Source of the DNA: Polyangium aurulentum
GTDB taxonomy: Bacteria; Myxococcota_A; Polyangia; Polyangiales; Polyangiaceae
Length of the DNA stretch: 64,000 nucleotides
Assembly: GCA_945875545.1 (NCBI GenBank)
Contig: CAMCKZ010000005.1
Span: 1-64,000 of the forward strand
Reading direction: 5' to 3'
Shown here: positions 136-58,508 of the stretch, piece by piece
How the letters are laid out: every line of letters starts with the position of its first letter
How positions within the stretch are numbered: the first letter of the stretch is position 1
Position numbers and translations under genes: made by a program
The notes under the pieces: generated by a model
The model's input: only the letters and a program-made list of their open reading frames with translations
Databases searched by the model: none
Told to the model about the DNA's origin: nothing

Positions 136-584
136 GACCAATGGTGAGACAATGGGGCATGGGTCCCCGACGGGATTTGGCGCGCAGCAGGAAGGTTGTC
201 GGCGAGGGTCAGGCTAGTTCCCGGCGTTCACACCGACACGAGGAATGCCGCACCGCGCGAAGCGGAGTCCCTTGCACCCGCCGTGGCGACCGTGGCCGGG
301 AATTGGAAATTGTGGGTTCCGCAGAAAAAGACCCTTGCGGAGTCGAAGGATTTTCGTGCAAGCTGAGGCCGGCGCTGGAAAACATAGCGCGCCGCAAAGC
401 TCGGGCCGTTTGGGGCAAGAACACTCTCGTTAATTTCGACGAACGCCAACCACCTCCAACGCCTTCTGCCGCGCATGCATCGCGATGAAAATGCGACGAT
501 TTGTGCCGTCGCGGGTTTCCCAGCATCGACCGAGCGGATTGTCCCTCCCCATGGGGAGACCACGAGAAACACACCGGAGTGATC
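136..584. other. Gene-free stretch between transposase end and H1-like gene
   Basis: No frame here gives a recognisable protein. Open frames on both strands are GC-driven and overlap one another. The only structure seen is a decayed copy of the CTAG-ended dispersed element (372-531, listed separately). The right end of the insertion sequence should lie in the first part of this stretch, but no terminal repeat could be identified. Confidence 0.5.
372..531. repeat. Decayed copy of the CTAG-ended dispersed element
   Basis: Blocks occur in the same order as in the intact copies at 49854 and 58368: GCGCTGG-AAAC, CAAAGCT, ACTCTC, ATTTCGACGA, GCGACGATTTG and TTTCCCAGCATC. The spacing between blocks is larger and the CTAG ends are lost. 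Homology rests on colinearity of these blocks and was judged by eye. Confidence 0.5.
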
Positions 585-14604: not shown

Positions 14605-16329
14605 ATGGAAAGTCCTGTCCTTCGCTGGTCCCTCATCGCTCTCGCGGTCATTCTCGCGGTCAAATTTGGCCCATCGGTTTTTGGCAGTGAGCACAAAGTT
14701 CAGCCGGTGCCCGCGGTGCACTACGTCGACGCGCCGGGCTTTGTGGGCGACCCCGTAGACACCCCGTCCGGCCAGCCCCCCGAGGGCGATATATGCAGTC
14801 TACAAGGGTTGGATTTCGTCGCGGATTTTTCTTCGCGAGGAGCGGCCATCACTCACTTTCGGCTCACGAGCGAAAAGTACGCACTGAGCCCCGCCGCCGA
14901 CCTTAGTTCCACGGTTTCCAATGAGCGCTGGCGCTCGCTTCGCACGCTTTTTCGCTCGGTTTCTCGCGCCAACGCGCCAGACGGTTCCGATCAACTGCCG
15001 TACGATCGTTTCAACTGGGCGCTCGCGGCACACGACGGCAAATCGTGCACGTTTACCCACGACGCCCCCTCGGCCTTGGTCACCAAGCGCATCACGGCAG
15101 GCACCCGGCCCTACGAGCTCAGCGTCGAGACCACGATCGAAAATCGCGCCGCCGAGGCACGCTCTCACCGCTTTTCGATTGGGGCCTATGCCTACCGAAA
15201 AAACGAAGACGTCAAAGGTAGCTTTGGCCGTGTTTCGCCTTTCCAAACCGACCTCACCGTTGCTTCGGGCGAAGAGGTCATTCGCAAGCCCAAGGGTGAT
15301 TTTCAGACGGGCTGGTTCGAAAAAGACGGCGTCGATCGTTACGTAGCGGTCACCAATTATTACTTCGCCCAAGCCATCGTTCCCGTCGCCGACGAGCTGC
15401 AGCCGCGGCCTCAGGGCGAACTCCTTGGTGAGCAGTGGTTCGCCCCCGGCCAAGACCCCGACGCCGACGACGCGGGCATGGTCTTCCACGCCAACCTCGA
15501 GTACGCCTCGCGCACGCTGAAACCCGGCGAAAAAGCTACCTATCGGCAAGATGCGTACTTCGGCCCGAAGGAGCGCGATCTGCTCGCCGCCGCCCTCGGC
15601 GGGCACGCGAGGCTGTCTGATTTGATCGACCTCGGAACGTTTTCCGGCGTCGCGAAGGTTCTCGTCGGTGCCCTCCGTTTTCTGGCCGAGCACGTCACGA
15701 GCGGTTCCTGGGGTTTGGCGGTCGTTTGCCTCACCTTCGCGCTGCGCATGCTCCTCTTGCCCCTTCTCATTCCGGGCATCCAGACCACCGTCGGAATGCG
15801 CAAGATCAAGCCTGAAATCGAGCTAATCAACGAGCGTTTCAAAGACGACCAAATGGCCAAAACCATGGCCACCCAAGAACTTTGGCGGAAGCACAAAATC
15901 AACCCCGCAAAAGGCTGCCTCCCGCAGCTGGCGGCGATGCCCGTGTGGTTCGCCATGTACACCACGCTGCAGACCGCAGTTGAGATGTACAATACACACT
16001 TTCTTTGGTTCCGCGATCTCTCCGCGCCGGACCCGTACTACGTGCTCCCGCTCTTGCTCGGCGGCTTCATGATTGTTCAGCAAAAGCTCGTGCCTGCGCA
16101 GGGAATGGACCCAATGCAGCAGCAAATGATGACGTGGCTTATGCCTCTCATTTTCACGACGATGATGCTTTTTCTTCCGGCGGCCCTCGGCCTCTACATG
16201 CTCACCAACAGCGTGCTCGGCATCGCCCAGCAGCTCGTCGTGGAGCGCATCGCCCAGAACCAGTCCGCACCTTCCATCGTCGTCTCCGAACCCACTCCGA
16301 CCGCGCCTCGAACCAACGCGCGCGCCTGA
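14605..16329 (+). CDS. yidC: Membrane protein insertase YidC
   Basis: 574 residues. An N-terminal membrane helix (about 7-25) is followed by the large periplasmic domain of Gram-negative YidC (about 60-345) and five hydrophobic segments (about 350-545). The conserved hydrophilic groove lies in GMRKIKPEIELINERFKDD, and LPLLIPGIQ contributes the first core helix. The long periplasmic domain supports a diderm host. The stop codon is inside the first unit of a 15-bp tandem repeat. Confidence 0.96.
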   Translation: MESPVLRWSLIALAVILAVKFGPSVFGSEHKVQPVPAVHYVDAPGFVGDPVDTPSGQPPEGDICSLQGLDFVADFSSRGAAITHFRLTSEKYALSPAADLSSTVSNERWRSLRTLFRSVSRANAPDGSDQLPYDRFNWALAAHDGKSCTFTHDAPSALVTKRITAGTRPYELSVETTIENRAAEARSHRFSIGAYAYRKNEDVKGSFGRVSPFQTDLTVASGEEVIRKPKGDFQTGWFEKDGVDRYVAVTNYYFAQAIVPVADELQPRPQGELLGEQWFAPGQDPDADDAGMVFHANLEYASRTLKPGEKATYRQDAYFGPKERDLLAAALGGHARLSDLIDLGTFSGVAKVLVGALRFLAEHVTSGSWGLAVVCLTFALRMLLLPLLIPGIQTTVGMRKIKPEIELINERFKDDQMAKTMATQELWRKHKINPAKGCLPQLAAMPVWFAMYTTLQTAVEMYNTHFLWFRDLSAPDPYYVLPLLLGGFMIVQQKLVPAQGMDPMQQQMMTWLMPLIFTTMMLFLPAALGLYMLTNSVLGIAQQLVVERIAQNQSAPSIVVSEPTPTAPRTNARA

Positions 16330-16428
16330 TTCTTCAGGGCCTGATTCTCCAGAGCCTGATTCCCCAAAGCCTGATTCCCCAGAGCCTGATTCTCCAGAGC
16401 CTGATTCCCCAAAGCCTGCTTTCCCAGA
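16324..16428 (+). repeat. Seven 15-bp tandem units duplicating the yidC stop codon
   Basis: Seven consecutive units of the form GCCTGATTCYCCARA fill almost the whole yidC-jag gap. The first unit contains the yidC stop (TGA at 16327-16329). Units 2-6 repeat GCCTGA in the same frame, while unit 7 reads GCCTGC and lacks the TGA. No strong hairpin is seen. Confidence 0.92.
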
Positions 16429-49035: not shown

Positions 49036-49809
49036 ATGAAGACACATTTCCTCGGTTGTTCAGCCTTTTTCCTGCTTTCTACCCTCGCGGCGGGTGCCGG
49101 GCCCGAGACGGTCGCCGAGCTCGTCCAACGAAGCCTGCGCGCCGAGTTTTTCGCCGGCTCGTCCACCCGAATTCGCGCCCGGTTGGTGCTCACGGGCAAG
49201 GACGGCAAGAGTCAGGACCGAGCCTTTTCCGCCTGGGGAAAACGCGACGAAAACGGGCAGCGCCGAACCCTCGTTCGCTTCGAGAGTCCGGCTTCCGTTG
49301 AGGGCGTCTCGTTCCTCATGTCGCAGCGGGCCGCGGAGCCCGATGAGCAATACCTATACCTTCCCAAGTTCAAGTCTACACGGCGTATTGGTGGTGCCAG
49401 TGAGCGTCAGTCGAGCTTCATGGGCAGCGACTTTTCGTACGCGGACCTCGAGCGCAAAGATGTTCGCGACGCAACCTACGAAGTCTTGGGCGACGAGACC
49501 GTCGCCGGTAAACCCTGCGCCCACGTGATCGCCAGGCCTCGCGCCGCCAGCGCCTACAGCCGCGTGGAGTTGTGGATTCGGCGAGCCGATGCCGTGGCCC
49601 TGCGAATCGCCATGTTTGATGCAGACGGTGCCCTGCTCAAAACGACCGTAACGCGGCGCGTGCGCGTGGTCGATGGAGAGCCGGTCATCGTTGAATCGCG
49701 CACCGAAAATGCGCGCACGGGGCATGTCACCGAGCTTGTCGTCGAAGAGGTGACGAGGGCCGACAACCTCGACGACGCATTTTTTTCCCCCGCTAGTTTG
49801 GCGCGATGA
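49036..49809 (+). CDS. LolA-like outer-membrane lipoprotein-sorting protein
   Basis: 257 residues from ATG 49036. Signal peptide FFLLSTLAAGAGP, then a LolA-like beta-sheet domain with SFLMSQRAAEPDEQYLYLPKFKSTRRIGG...SFMGSDFSYADLERKD. This 'LolA_like' type usually accompanies MMPL/RND lipid exporters and a barrel protein. Here it is coupled by a four-base overlap to the beta-barrel gene at 49806, but no MMPL exporter is in the window. Periplasmic lipid or lipoprotein carrier is the inferred role. Confidence 0.85.
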   Translation: MKTHFLGCSAFFLLSTLAAGAGPETVAELVQRSLRAEFFAGSSTRIRARLVLTGKDGKSQDRAFSAWGKRDENGQRRTLVRFESPASVEGVSFLMSQRAAEPDEQYLYLPKFKSTRRIGGASERQSSFMGSDFSYADLERKDVRDATYEVLGDETVAGKPCAHVIARPRAASAYSRVELWIRRADAVALRIAMFDADGALLKTTVTRRVRVVDGEPVIVESRTENARTGHVTELVVEEVTRADNLDDAFFSPASLAR

Positions 49810-51485
49810 ATCGGTCCGATTCGCGAGGGGCGCAGCTGCTGTTGATCGCGTTTCTAGGAATGCGCTGGGAAACGCGGACGCTCCCAAAGCTAGTGCAGGG
49901 CGAGGCAGGAATACTCTCTGTATTTCGACGAGCCGAAGCGACGATTTGGGGCGGCCCGCCGTTTCCCAGCATCCACCTAGGGGTCGAAACCGCAAGCGCG
50001 CGCGGGCCGTCGGGCGGGGCGGGCGAGCCCATCGACGAGGTCATCGAGGACGATTCGTTTGCGCCAAAAGCCCCTCCGCGAAGCCCACGATCCGAGCCAA
50101 CGCCGTCGACCTTTTACGCGCGCGGCGTGACCCGCGCGACGCTCTTTCTCAATGGCAACGGCGAGGGCTCGGGCACGCCACTTGATCGTTACGAAACGCG
50201 GACGTTTCTGTTCGTCGGAGCGAAGAGTTCGGCGCAGGAAAAGAACGCTTGGCGCATTGAATTGCGCAGCGATTTACTCGGCCGTTCCCTGGCAAATCCT
50301 TCGAGCGACAACAGCCAAGCATGGGATCTCGAGGCCCGTCCGTGGGAGGCTTGGTGGCGCGCCCATCCCTCCGAAACCACGCGCCTCAAACTCGGTTTCC
50401 AGTCGATCAATTGGGGCGTCCTGGACGTGGGTGCAGCGTCCGACGTCTTCGCCAGTTTTGATCTTCGGCTTGGTCCCGCGCTGACCCCCGCCGAGGTGCG
50501 AATGCCCGTCCCCGCGGCGGTCGTGAGCTGGAGCCCTTCGTCGCGGGTGGACGTCGAATTGGCGGCCCTGCCCTTCTTCACGCCTCACCGATTTGACCTC
50601 ACAGGAACGCGCTACGCCGCGTTGTCGCCCCAGACGCTGGGCCCGCTTGCGCAAGCGTTTGATCGCGGCACCCTGACCCGCATCACCGACGGAATCGCCC
50701 GTGCCAATGGCATCGATGCTCGGCCCGACCACGGCGAATTGGGCCTTCGAATCACCGTGCATCTTGCACGCATCGATCTCGCGGTCACCGCTGCAGCCCC
50801 TCGCAATCGCTTTCCGTCGTACCGCGTGAGCGAAGCCTTTGAGGCCGTTTTGCGGAATCCCACAGCTCCCGCTCTCTTCCGAATGCAACAGGAGCTAGAC
50901 GCTGGTATCCAGCCAATTGCCGCCAATTACGCGCGATACATGCAGTTTGCAGTCGATGCGCAGGGCTCTTGGGGCTCGGTTCCCTGGGGCGCCGAACTTG
51001 GGCTGTCGTCACGGCGCGAGCTCGTTTCTTCGACGCCCCTGTCGAGTGCTCCGGCACCTCGCGCGCATGTTTTTCAGGGCGGCTTGCGCGCGAGCAAAGT
51101 ATGGGGCGACCTGACCGTTGCGGGACAAGCTGCAGTCTACACCCTTCTCAATTCCTCCAGCGATGGGGGATCGGTGGTGATTACACCCATTCTTTTCGGC
51201 GACCGCCGCACCACAGCCCTCGCTGTTGCAAGCCTGCGCTACGAGCTTCGCGCGTTCTTTTTTGAGGCCAGCGCATTGGGGCTTTGCGGTGGGCCTGAGC
51301 TCGCATCTTCGCCCTGCGCAAGCACCACGATTTTGGCCACGGGCCGCGCGGGCTACGGCACCGATGACTTCAGTGTATCTCTCGGAGGCACGGGAATTCG
51401 CTCATCGAACGGGAAAGATCTTCCGTTGAATGCGGCCATCGATCAACTCGTACTGCGGCTTGATTTCACGCCCCCTGGCCGCTGA
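49806..51485 (+). CDS. Outer-membrane beta-barrel protein interrupted by dispersed element
   Basis: 559 residues from ATG 49806 (overlaps the upstream stop as ATGA). A short hydrophobic signal (AQLLLIAFLG) is followed at once by 42 residues encoded by the CTAG-ended element (49854-49981). After it comes an acidic linker and a long beta-strand-rich region with alternating aromatic and hydrophobic residues, ending RLDFTPPGR. The barrel resembles DUF1302-type porins that pair with LolA-like carriers. The element is in frame and leaves the reading frame open, but it separates the signal from the mature protein, so secretion may be affected. Confidence 0.8.
   Translation: MNRSDSRGAQLLLIAFLGMRWETRTLPKLVQGEAGILSVFRRAEATIWGGPPFPSIHLGVETASARGPSGGAGEPIDEVIEDDSFAPKAPPRSPRSEPTPSTFYARGVTRATLFLNGNGEGSGTPLDRYETRTFLFVGAKSSAQEKNAWRIELRSDLLGRSLANPSSDNSQAWDLEARPWEAWWRAHPSETTRLKLGFQSINWGVLDVGAASDVFASFDLRLGPALTPAEVRMPVPAAVVSWSPSSRVDVELAALPFFTPHRFDLTGTRYAALSPQTLGPLAQAFDRGTLTRITDGIARANGIDARPDHGELGLRITVHLARIDLAVTAAAPRNRFPSYRVSEAFEAVLRNPTAPALFRMQQELDAGIQPIAANYARYMQFAVDAQGSWGSVPWGAELGLSSRRELVSSTPLSSAPAPRAHVFQGGLRASKVWGDLTVAGQAAVYTLLNSSSDGGSVVITPILFGDRRTTALAVASLRYELRAFFFEASALGLCGGPELASSPCASTTILATGRAGYGTDDFSVSLGGTGIRSSNGKDLPLNAAIDQLVLRLDFTPPGR
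49854..49981 (+). repeat. CTAG-ended dispersed element, copy B (inside barrel gene)
   Basis: 128 bp. The left end is CTAGGAATGCGCTGGGAAACG and the right end in reverse complement is CTAGGTGGATGCTGGGAAACG, an imperfect inverted repeat of about 21 bases sharing CTAGG and GCTGGGAAACG. The inside is nearly identical to the copy at 58368 over the left half (to about 52 bases) and the right third (TATTTCGACGA, AAGCGACGATTTGGGGCGG). No transposase is encoded. Confidence 0.88.
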
Positions 51486-53250: not shown

Positions 53251-53364
53251 AGAGCAGTTTACGGTCGGGGAGAGCGCATGCTGCCGCTCCCCCGACGACC
53301 CCCACCAGCTTTTATGCTGACTCGCCCGCCCCCATGCGGGGTCAATGCGACTGAAAACCGCTCT
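53251..53364. repeat. Imperfect long inverted repeat with inner hairpins
   Basis: AGAGCAGTTTACGGTC at 53251 and GACTGAAAACCGCTCT at 53349 are inverted repeats (13 of 16 matching). Inside, GTCGGGGAGAGCG faces CGCTCCCCCGAC, and CCCGC faces GCGGG around 53326-53340. The right arm overlaps the stop of the lamin-tail gene. A similar GAAAACCGCTCTA word lies at about 3058, just before the kinase start. Confidence 0.6.
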
Positions 53365-54349
53365 AACGGCAGATCGGTTGCTGGCGGAGACTCGTGCGAT
53401 CCGGTTGGAATGCCCCCGAATCGCCGCTGCGCACGCTCACGTCGTCGAACCATGCGGCGACGTCAAAAACGCGGCCGCCGAGGTACGAAACGCACCGATG
53501 GCGACGGTAGGTTTTGTCGCTCCAAATTTCACTGGCGGGCCGAACCCCGGGCTCGCCGAAAAAGTCCACGCGCAAATCGCTATCGTAGTCCACGCGACCA
53601 TTTTGGTTCGCGTCGAAAAAGAGGCCGATGCGATCGTCTCCGTTGAAGTTGACGACGTCGGTGTTGTGCGCGTCGCACTGCGTGTCGGGAGAGGCGGTGC
53701 CGTTGCAAAGAACGAAGGTTCCTCCCGCAGGTATTTGACCCGCGAGCATCACGTGCCAATTGCAGCTCGTGTACTGGTTGCTTTGAAGGCACAGACCGTA
53801 ACGGGAAAGGTCGATGGGGCGGGCCCCGGGGTTCCAAATCACGACCGCTTTGAACCACGCCGATTCGACTATTTTGCCGAATAAAAGCAGGTCTTCCGTG
53901 GCGACGCCGGGTACGCATTGACCGCCCTGGCAACTGAGGCCATACCCGCAAAAGGACCCGTTGGACTTCGTGGAAACCGCCGCGCACTCAGGAAGCCCCG
54001 CATCGCTGCACCGGTACGCACCGACGGTGCACGGGTCGAGGAGCGAACAAGCGCCAGCGGCCCCTCCGCAGGTGGCAACGATGCCTGCATCATGCACCGA
54101 GTTTCCGTCCAATATGCCTGCATCATGCACCGAGTTTCCGTCAACAACGCTTGCATCTTGCACGGAGTTTTCGTCGGGGATACTTGCATCATGCACGGAA
54201 GTTTCATCGGGCTTACTTGCGTCTTGCACGAATGGGCTGCCATCGCGCGGGCCCATGGGCGCGAGCGTTTCAGTGACCGCCTCGCCGGACCCGAAGCAGC
54301 CCGACACGATCAAACAAAGGCCCATCTCGCTCGCCAAGATCCACTTCAT
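53363..54349 (-). CDS. Lipoprotein with lamin-tail-like domain and DxxSVxDA repeats
   Basis: 328 residues. Lipobox IVSGC. Residues about 40-89 are five imperfect 11-residue units of the type DGNSVHDAGIL. A short Cys-rich part follows, then a beta-sandwich like a lamin-tail domain (EDLLLFGKIVESAWFKAVVIWNPGARPIDLSRYGLCL...GTFVLCNGTASP...DRIGLFFDANQNGRVDY), a fold common on secreted bacterial surface proteins. Surface-exposed adhesin or scaffold is an inference. Confidence 0.82.
   Translation of the reverse strand: MKWILASEMGLCLIVSGCFGSGEAVTETLAPMGPRDGSPFVQDASKPDETSVHDASIPDENSVQDASVVDGNSVHDAGILDGNSVHDAGIVATCGGAAGACSLLDPCTVGAYRCSDAGLPECAAVSTKSNGSFCGYGLSCQGGQCVPGVATEDLLLFGKIVESAWFKAVVIWNPGARPIDLSRYGLCLQSNQYTSCNWHVMLAGQIPAGGTFVLCNGTASPDTQCDAHNTDVVNFNGDDRIGLFFDANQNGRVDYDSDLRVDFFGEPGVRPASEIWSDKTYRRHRCVSYLGGRVFDVAAWFDDVSVRSGDSGAFQPDRTSLRQQPICR
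54083..54232 (-). repeat. 33-bp tandem repeat within the lamin-tail lipoprotein gene
   Basis: Units of 33 bases (GCCTGCATCATGCACCGAG core on the plus strand) begin at 54083, 54116, 54149 and 54182, with a partial fifth. Two adjacent units are nearly identical, the others more diverged, which suggests recent copying at one end. Confidence 0.88.
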
Positions 54350-57690: not shown

Positions 57691-58371
57691 GTGAACGACG
57701 AGTCTCCTCCGGCCGGTGAATCGAGACGCGCGCGACGGCGGCGAGTGAAGGCGTCGAAGGTGCGAAAACCGATCACCGAAGACATCTTTAATCTGCCAAA
57801 TTCCCTGACATTTGGCCGCATTTTGGCCATCGTTCCCTTCTGCGTTTTTCTCTCCCAAGACACAAAACGCAGCGGAGTGATCGCGGCCTTTATCTTCACC
57901 ATCGCGGCCATCACCGATTTCTTCGATGGCTATTTGGCGCGGCGTCTCGGCATCGAGTCGGTCCTTGGCAAGTTTCTTGACCCCCTCGCCGACAAGCTCA
58001 TCGTCATGGCGGCCTTGGTCGGGTGCGTGCATTTGGGCCGCATATCGCCGTGGTTTGTCGCCGTTCTCTTGGGCCGCGAACTATCCGTGAGCGGGCTGCG
58101 CGCCATTGCCAGCAGCGAGGGCGTGGTCATTGCGGCGGGCCAAGACGGCAAGACGAAAACGGCCCTTCAGATGATTGGCCTCATCTGCCTCGTGGCGGCG
58201 TACCCCGTGCGCCTTGACTACGGCTACCTCAATTTCGGCACGTTGAACCTGATGCGCGTTGGGCGCTTTTTGCTTTATATTTCCCTGGCATTCTCCGTGG
58301 CGGCCATGGCGGAATACCTTCGAATGTTTGCGGCCGCCGTCGACGCAAAAATCTCGAAGCGATCAGCCTAG
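57691..58371 (+). CDS. pgsA: CDP-diacylglycerol-glycerol-3-phosphate phosphatidyltransferase
   Basis: 226 residues from GTG 57691. N-terminal basic stretch, then DIFNLPNSLTFGRIL and the CDP-alcohol motif D-G-xx-A-R-(x8)-G-xxx-D-xxx-D as DGYLARRLGIESVLGKFLD plus PLAD. Four or five membrane helices. It makes phosphatidylglycerol phosphate. The stop TAG (58369-58371) is part of the CTAG end of the dispersed element that follows. Confidence 0.92.
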   Translation: MNDESPPAGESRRARRRRVKASKVRKPITEDIFNLPNSLTFGRILAIVPFCVFLSQDTKRSGVIAAFIFTIAAITDFFDGYLARRLGIESVLGKFLDPLADKLIVMAALVGCVHLGRISPWFVAVLLGRELSVSGLRAIASSEGVVIAAGQDGKTKTALQMIGLICLVAAYPVRLDYGYLNFGTLNLMRVGRFLLYISLAFSVAAMAEYLRMFAAAVDAKISKRSA

Positions 58372-58508
58372 AAGTGTGCTGGGAAACGCGGACGCTCCCA
58401 AAGCTAGTGCAGGGCGAGGTAGGCCTGTGTTCGAAAAGAGGGCGTCGTATTTCGACGAGAACAAGCGACGATTTGGGGCGGTTCCCCGTTTCCCAGCGTC
58501 CACCTAGG
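58368..58508 (+). repeat. CTAG-ended dispersed element, copy C (at the pgsA stop)
   Basis: 141 bp. Left end CTAGAAGTGTGCTGGGAAACG, right end in reverse complement CTAGGTGGACGCTGGGAAACG. Nearly identical to copy B over the left half, about 13 bases longer in the middle. Both copies have an open frame WETRTLPKLVQGE in the left half, which may be chance conservation of DNA. Confidence 0.88.

Follow-up and report, generated by a model that had tools for sequence, protein, structure and literature searches.

The window, i.e. the whole stretch of 64,000 nucleotides that was analysed, belongs to a draft assembly of Polyangium aurulentum of 3.52 Mb in 188 contigs, hereafter called G000. In it, a LolA-like gene is followed by a gene for an outer-membrane barrel protein, and the latter holds one copy of a palindromic element that is also found elsewhere in the window. 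The features are as follows:

49036..49809, plus strand: LolA-like gene, the stop codon of which overlaps the start of the barrel gene (ATGA)
49806..51485, plus strand: DUF1302-type outer-membrane barrel gene of 559 codons, with copy B of the element in frame
49836..49859, plus strand: LLLIAFLG, the hydrophobic core of the signal peptide, on the 5' side of the insertion
49854..49980, plus strand: copy B, with CTAG at 49854-49857 and at 49977-49980, 119 bp between them and a net gain of 123 bp
49983..50006, plus strand: displaced c-region and cleavage motif, VETASA|RG, 3' of the insertion
364..534, plus strand: degenerate third copy, with an additional nested hairpin
58368..58507, plus strand: copy C, a non-coding long form (net 136 bp), the start of which coincides with the TAG stop codon of a pgsA-like gene for a CDP-alcohol phosphatidyltransferase

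A first-pass annotation had claimed that the barrel gene runs through copy B without a stop codon or a change of frame; this we confirm, and the frame downstream is intact as well. The insert had been put at about 42 residues, which was close: the CTAG-to-CTAG distance of 123 bp corresponds to exactly 41 codons. Its position, on the other hand, has to be corrected, because the element does not separate the signal peptide from the mature protein but lies within the signal peptide, between LLLIAFLG and ETASA|RG. As for copy C, the WETRTLPKLVQGE frame is open there as had been stated, but it is not part of a protein; copy C was considered as a coding copy and rejected, since its net length of 136 bp is not a multiple of three and it sits behind a stop codon.

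A start of the barrel gene inside or after the element was likewise considered and rejected. The ATGA overlap between the stop of the LolA-like gene and the start of the barrel gene is kept in two relatives, G001 and G002, which puts the true start ahead of the element, and no signal peptide would remain with a later start. Insertion-free alleles, which the annotation had proposed to look for, do exist: four relatives carry the barrel gene (G002, 59% identity; G001, 55%; G012, 36%; G018, 33%), the matches begin past the element, and the N-termini are without it in four out of four. When the flanks of copy B are joined without the element they give MNRSDSRGAQ-LLLIAFLGV-ETASA|RG, with the cleavage motif five residues past the hydrophobic core, and this reads as an ordinary-looking signal peptide. 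With the element in place, the ASA|RG motif is shifted by 41 residues, and the nearest alternative cleavage-like motifs are found 13-15 residues past the core. Judged from its sequence, the signal peptide is split by copy B between the hydrophobic core and the c-region, and because the cleavage motif has been moved 41 residues away, export of the barrel protein is probably impaired.

The RNA fold of copy B is a single long imperfect hairpin (-62.7 kcal/mol, z -4.95). Its ends, GCTGGGAAACG and CGTTTCCCAGC, are complementary, and the arms pair from the ends inwards, i.e. the element has terminal inverted repeats. A short form of 127 bp, both CTAGs included, is exact in 9 of 10 copies, the remaining one (L024) being one base shorter; a long form measures about 138-142 bp, and there are further forms with an extra nested hairpin. 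In its size of 127-190 bp, its multiple copies and its lack of a transposase gene the element resembles a MITE. BLAST returned at least 37 matches in G000, and a covariance model built from 19 copies at least some 30 distinct copies, a count that is possibly too low; the same model gave 7 matches in each of two congeneric genomes. Together with the strong hairpin, such numbers go far beyond what chance would produce. Among 39 genomes, BLAST matches were obtained in five, of which one is G000 itself or was counted beside it, two are of the same genus and the weak ones fall within the family. No meaningful match came from an Rfam search with element loci from several genomes. CTAG or a near variant of it flanks most copies on both sides; the DNA of the empty sites in the orthologs has diverged too far for a single CTAG to be recognised.

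Some further observations concern individual copies and other repeats. Several G000 copies (L028, L034-L038) have nested within them another small hairpin, CCCCATCC...GGATGGGTCCCC, which occurs in other arrangements as well, so that in this genome palindromes are nested within palindromes. One short copy (L015:1335-1461, on contig C16) immediately precedes a short-chain dehydrogenase gene, and its end supplies AGGGG before the ATG, possibly as part of a ribosome-binding site. The window also contains 33-bp tandem repeats at 54076-54207, which lie in the N-terminal part of an ORF on the minus strand (53363-54349) and give NSVHDAGI-like repeated units, and tandem repeats at 1003-1302 and 16309-16428 with units of 48 bp and 15 bp.

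To place the copies with respect to genes, 29 of those in G000 were set against open frames scored by a simple measure of codon usage, and the candidates were checked with Pfam. Besides the barrel gene, two G000 genes were found to hold the element in frame:

L020: MtnA gene, one copy of 41 codons, in frame
L016: class I/II aminotransferase gene, two tandem copies with a CTAG in common, 46 + 41 codons, in frame

Both proteins retain their conserved residues, and both have orthologs without the insert, with 75% (G002) and 72% (G001) identity for MtnA and 72% and 69%, respectively, for the aminotransferase; in both, the alignment runs up to the insertion point and on from it free of gaps, and the barrel orthologs likewise show no gap at the site. 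In-frame insertion into a conserved protein gene of which empty orthologs exist, as with Rickettsia palindromic elements (RPEs), is seen in the barrel, MtnA and aminotransferase genes alike. No second MtnA gene was found in G000 besides the one that bears the element. With its insert, MtnA clears the curated cut-offs of its families (413.6 bits versus 271 for PRK05720 and 374.6 versus 279 for TIGR00512), and AlphaFold2 gives the insert-bearing protein an MtnA fold (pTM 0.79; best solved match, 2yvk) in which the insert, modelled with low confidence (156-189), is flanked by a helix and a strand. At this position the MtnA of B. subtilis has a couple of residues only. The insert is thus predicted to be a disordered loop. 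For the aminotransferase the model has less confidence overall (mean pLDDT 65), and here, too, the inserts score lowest (197-296). A further case comes from G002, in which a regulator has a short element (L282:2553-2679, contig C352), in frame, between its FHA domain and its sigma-54 activator domain; no clear one-to-one ortholog of this regulator was found and the element itself is the evidence for insertion. Since in-frame copies occur in further genes, insertion of the element in genes is not a single accident. All in-gene copies (4 in 3 genes of G000 and 1 in G002) are open and share one orientation relative to the gene; the frame used is CTA-Gxx in the barrel gene and xCT-AGx in the others.

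A simple property of the short form may explain how genes can carry it. It is free of stop codons in four of the six frames, and in the other two it is the CTAG itself that reads TAG. A CTAG within a gene can stand in three phases, one of which reads TAG and can only be a stop codon, while in either of the remaining phases the short element can be read through whichever way round it lies, and its net length is a multiple of three. Consequently, a short form inserted at a genic CTAG either leaves the gene's frame open or is located directly after the stop codon. Four open frames were obtained in 0.7-1.4% of shuffled sequences, for an argument that was made after the sequence had been seen. A length divisible by three is found for 4 out of 4 in-gene copies of G000 versus 9 out of 25 others (p = 0.03, or 0.07 if the tandem pair is taken as one). 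When the copies were compared with 39 free CTAG sites, a background set that was drawn from the window alone and for which genes were called by the simple codon score, the flanking TAG proved to be the stop codon of a gene for 11 of 29 copies, copy C included, versus 2 of 39 free sites (p = 0.001). The same comparison shows that the element is found within genes less often than free CTAG sites are (4/29 copies versus 20/39 sites; p = 0.002). The picture that emerges is one of insertion at CTAG and subsequent loss of the harmful insertions.

What moves the element may be guessed from its target and its ends. Genome G031 contains a complete element of 1.3 kb with CTAG on both flanks, which ends in CAGGCTGCTGAAAAAC and the transposase of which is related to the IS5 family (NCBIfam NF033581), an assignment made through its G001 relative; the end of another such IS is present in G001. 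The ends of the G002 elements (CTAGCAGGCTGCTGAAAAA) are those of the G031 IS (common ends, CAGGCTGCTGAAAAA), whereas the ends of the G000 element match them only loosely. In G000 we saw no transposase with fitting ends, nor was the terminal repeat of the element found beside a transposase of this genome. Two transposase fragments of G000 are located at contig ends, and an autonomous IS may therefore be hidden by the draft assembly. Our best guess is that an IS5-family transposase acting in trans mobilises the element.

One feature does not fit a plain MITE: the apex of the hairpin is conserved in other bacteria as well. At least 110 stretches of bacterial genome sequence contain this apex, AGGAATACTNNNNGTATTTCGANGA; most belong to Desulfobacterales and other former Deltaproteobacteria, whereas about one occurrence would be expected by chance from a rough count of the specified bases. 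These matches were picked by the apex pattern, so that their identity at the apex is there by construction, and the informative point is that it recurs while the arms around it change. From family to family the arms are different and yet complementary: taken alone they give a median z of -6.6, with 37 of 40 below -2. These related hairpins have the apex in common with the G000 element but not the ends. Ordinary MITEs conserve their ends and not their middle; here the apex is conserved and the arms and ends vary, which is the reverse. The apex is absent from the G031 IS, matches no Rfam family, and was not found among the viral contigs of a viral collection. Same-apex hairpins with different complementary arms are present in many MAGs of Desulfobacterales and other deltaproteobacteria (L112-L221), and in isolate CSMAG_227 some copies retain the core and the 3' arm with a different 5' arm. 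We also considered whether same-apex elements occur elsewhere as coding insertions, but only a few of 117 matches are crossed by an open frame and none is convincing.

The explanation we favour, with a probability of roughly 0.84, is that of a MITE-like non-autonomous element which behaves like RPEs and is tolerated in frame as a passenger. A small, long hairpin with no gene of its own would insert at CTAG, with duplication of these 4 bp, and so end up flanked by CTAG on both sides, an IS5-family transposase probably providing the mobility in trans. Open frames and TAG-stop sites would let copies persist, among them those of the barrel, MtnA and aminotransferase genes. The inserted peptide would be a passenger that is probably translated along with its host gene and for the most part forms an unstructured loop; in the barrel gene, where it appears to split the signal peptide, it would probably weaken export. 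For the barrel gene itself, it is also possible, though we would bet against it, that the gene is dead or dying, its frame being open by luck and no exported protein with the peptide being made. The split signal peptide, with the nearest cleavage-like motifs 13-15 residues past the core, and the presence in G000 of a distant relative of the barrel gene (C21, 28% identity) are in line with this, but the frame of 559 codons is otherwise intact and aligns over its full length with the orthologs, and the element is also in frame in MtnA and the aminotransferase, both with their conserved residues. A recent insertion leaves little time for decay, so this reading may still hold for the barrel gene, and for that gene alone. 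A wider view, which the apex brings to mind and which we hold to be rather unlikely, is that the element belongs to a superfamily of hairpins, mostly of Desulfobacterota and Myxococcota-like genomes, with a conserved apex read by some factor and with variable complementary arms and ends; in the present lineage such a hairpin would have acquired a 3n length and four open frames, and genes could thus accommodate it.

The first-pass annotation had suggested a coding cassette, and of this the tolerated in-frame insertion stands, in two more G000 genes and in one gene of a relative. That the cassette is useful, i.e. retained because its peptide benefits the host proteins, is very improbable: the four in-gene copies in three G000 genes and the one in G002 are indeed open and in the same orientation, but the two frames in use yield unrelated peptides, the majority of the copies lie outside genes, they are rarer in genes than free CTAG sites are, and the insert of MtnA is predicted to be disordered. 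Dispersed imperfect palindromes with hairpins also call to mind REP/REPIN sequences mobilised by a Y1 (RAYT) transposase. However, a Y1 transposase (PF01797) is absent from G000, G001 and G002, while control genomes were positive, and the copies are bordered by CTAG on both sides, which leaves this origin with hardly any credibility. Finally, the annotation had itself named two findings that would speak against an insertion, a segment conserved in all orthologs as an ancestral part of the barrel protein and a true start located after it. An open frame is all that favours either; the orthologs are without the segment, a copy elsewhere, in an unrelated location, matches it with about 95% identity, and the conserved overlap with the upstream gene puts the start before it, so that we regard the chance of this as practically nil.

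Fusion of small palindromes to reading frames has precedents. RPEs are dispersed hairpins of 105-150 bp located between genes and, in frame, in conserved enzymes; 19 reading frames were concerned in the first report, and the product of one such gene, guanylate kinase (gmk), was shown to be active (Ogata et al. 2000, 2002, as summarised in PMC10969869 and PMC2229807). The G000 element is similarly a dispersed hairpin found in frame in conserved enzymes and between genes, but it differs by its clear CTAG target, its short form of strictly 3n length open in four frames, its use of TAG stops as sites and its unrelated host group. In its behaviour it works like an RPE, and we do not claim that it is one. 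Correia/NEMIS and ERIC (RU-1) are small MITEs with stop-free forms fused to reading frames, and Correia/NEMIS has a 107-bp form that is open and intragenic and a 155-bp form that has stops and is intergenic (PMC2229807, PMC2759123). The short and long forms of the G000 element parallel the latter two; however, ERIC and Correia have TA termini instead of CTAG, and RU fusions are described in conserved superfamily proteins at their C-terminal regions and not inside domains. The QMITE of Coxiella burnetii are MITEs with some in-frame insertions and overlaps with the 3' ends of genes, but their sequences differ from that of the G000 element and no CTAG rule is reported for them in the available part of the source (PMC5896051). 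To the IS5 family, the element is linked by the CTAG on both sides and by the ends that the G002 elements share with the complete G031 IS; it is set apart by the loose match of the G000 ends and by the hairpin apex, which the IS lacks. In open-access full texts, we found no paper on in-frame MITEs in myxobacteria or on IS5-family MITEs at CTAG. Small palindromes inserted in frame into conserved proteins have been documented most fully in Rickettsia; a 2024 review considers it "conceivable" that other prokaryotes undergo something similar (PMC10969869). Such insertion is now seen in a lineage unrelated to Rickettsia, with insert-free orthologs for three genes, and a simple mechanical reason can be offered for it (CTAG as target, 3n length, four frames without a stop, and the TAG stops of genes as safe sites), the predictions of which are testable. 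It also calls for caution with gene models, as peptides of this kind are insertions and not protein domains. While palindromes fused in frame were thus already known from other systems, the unrelated lineage and the clear target rule are what the present element adds to them.
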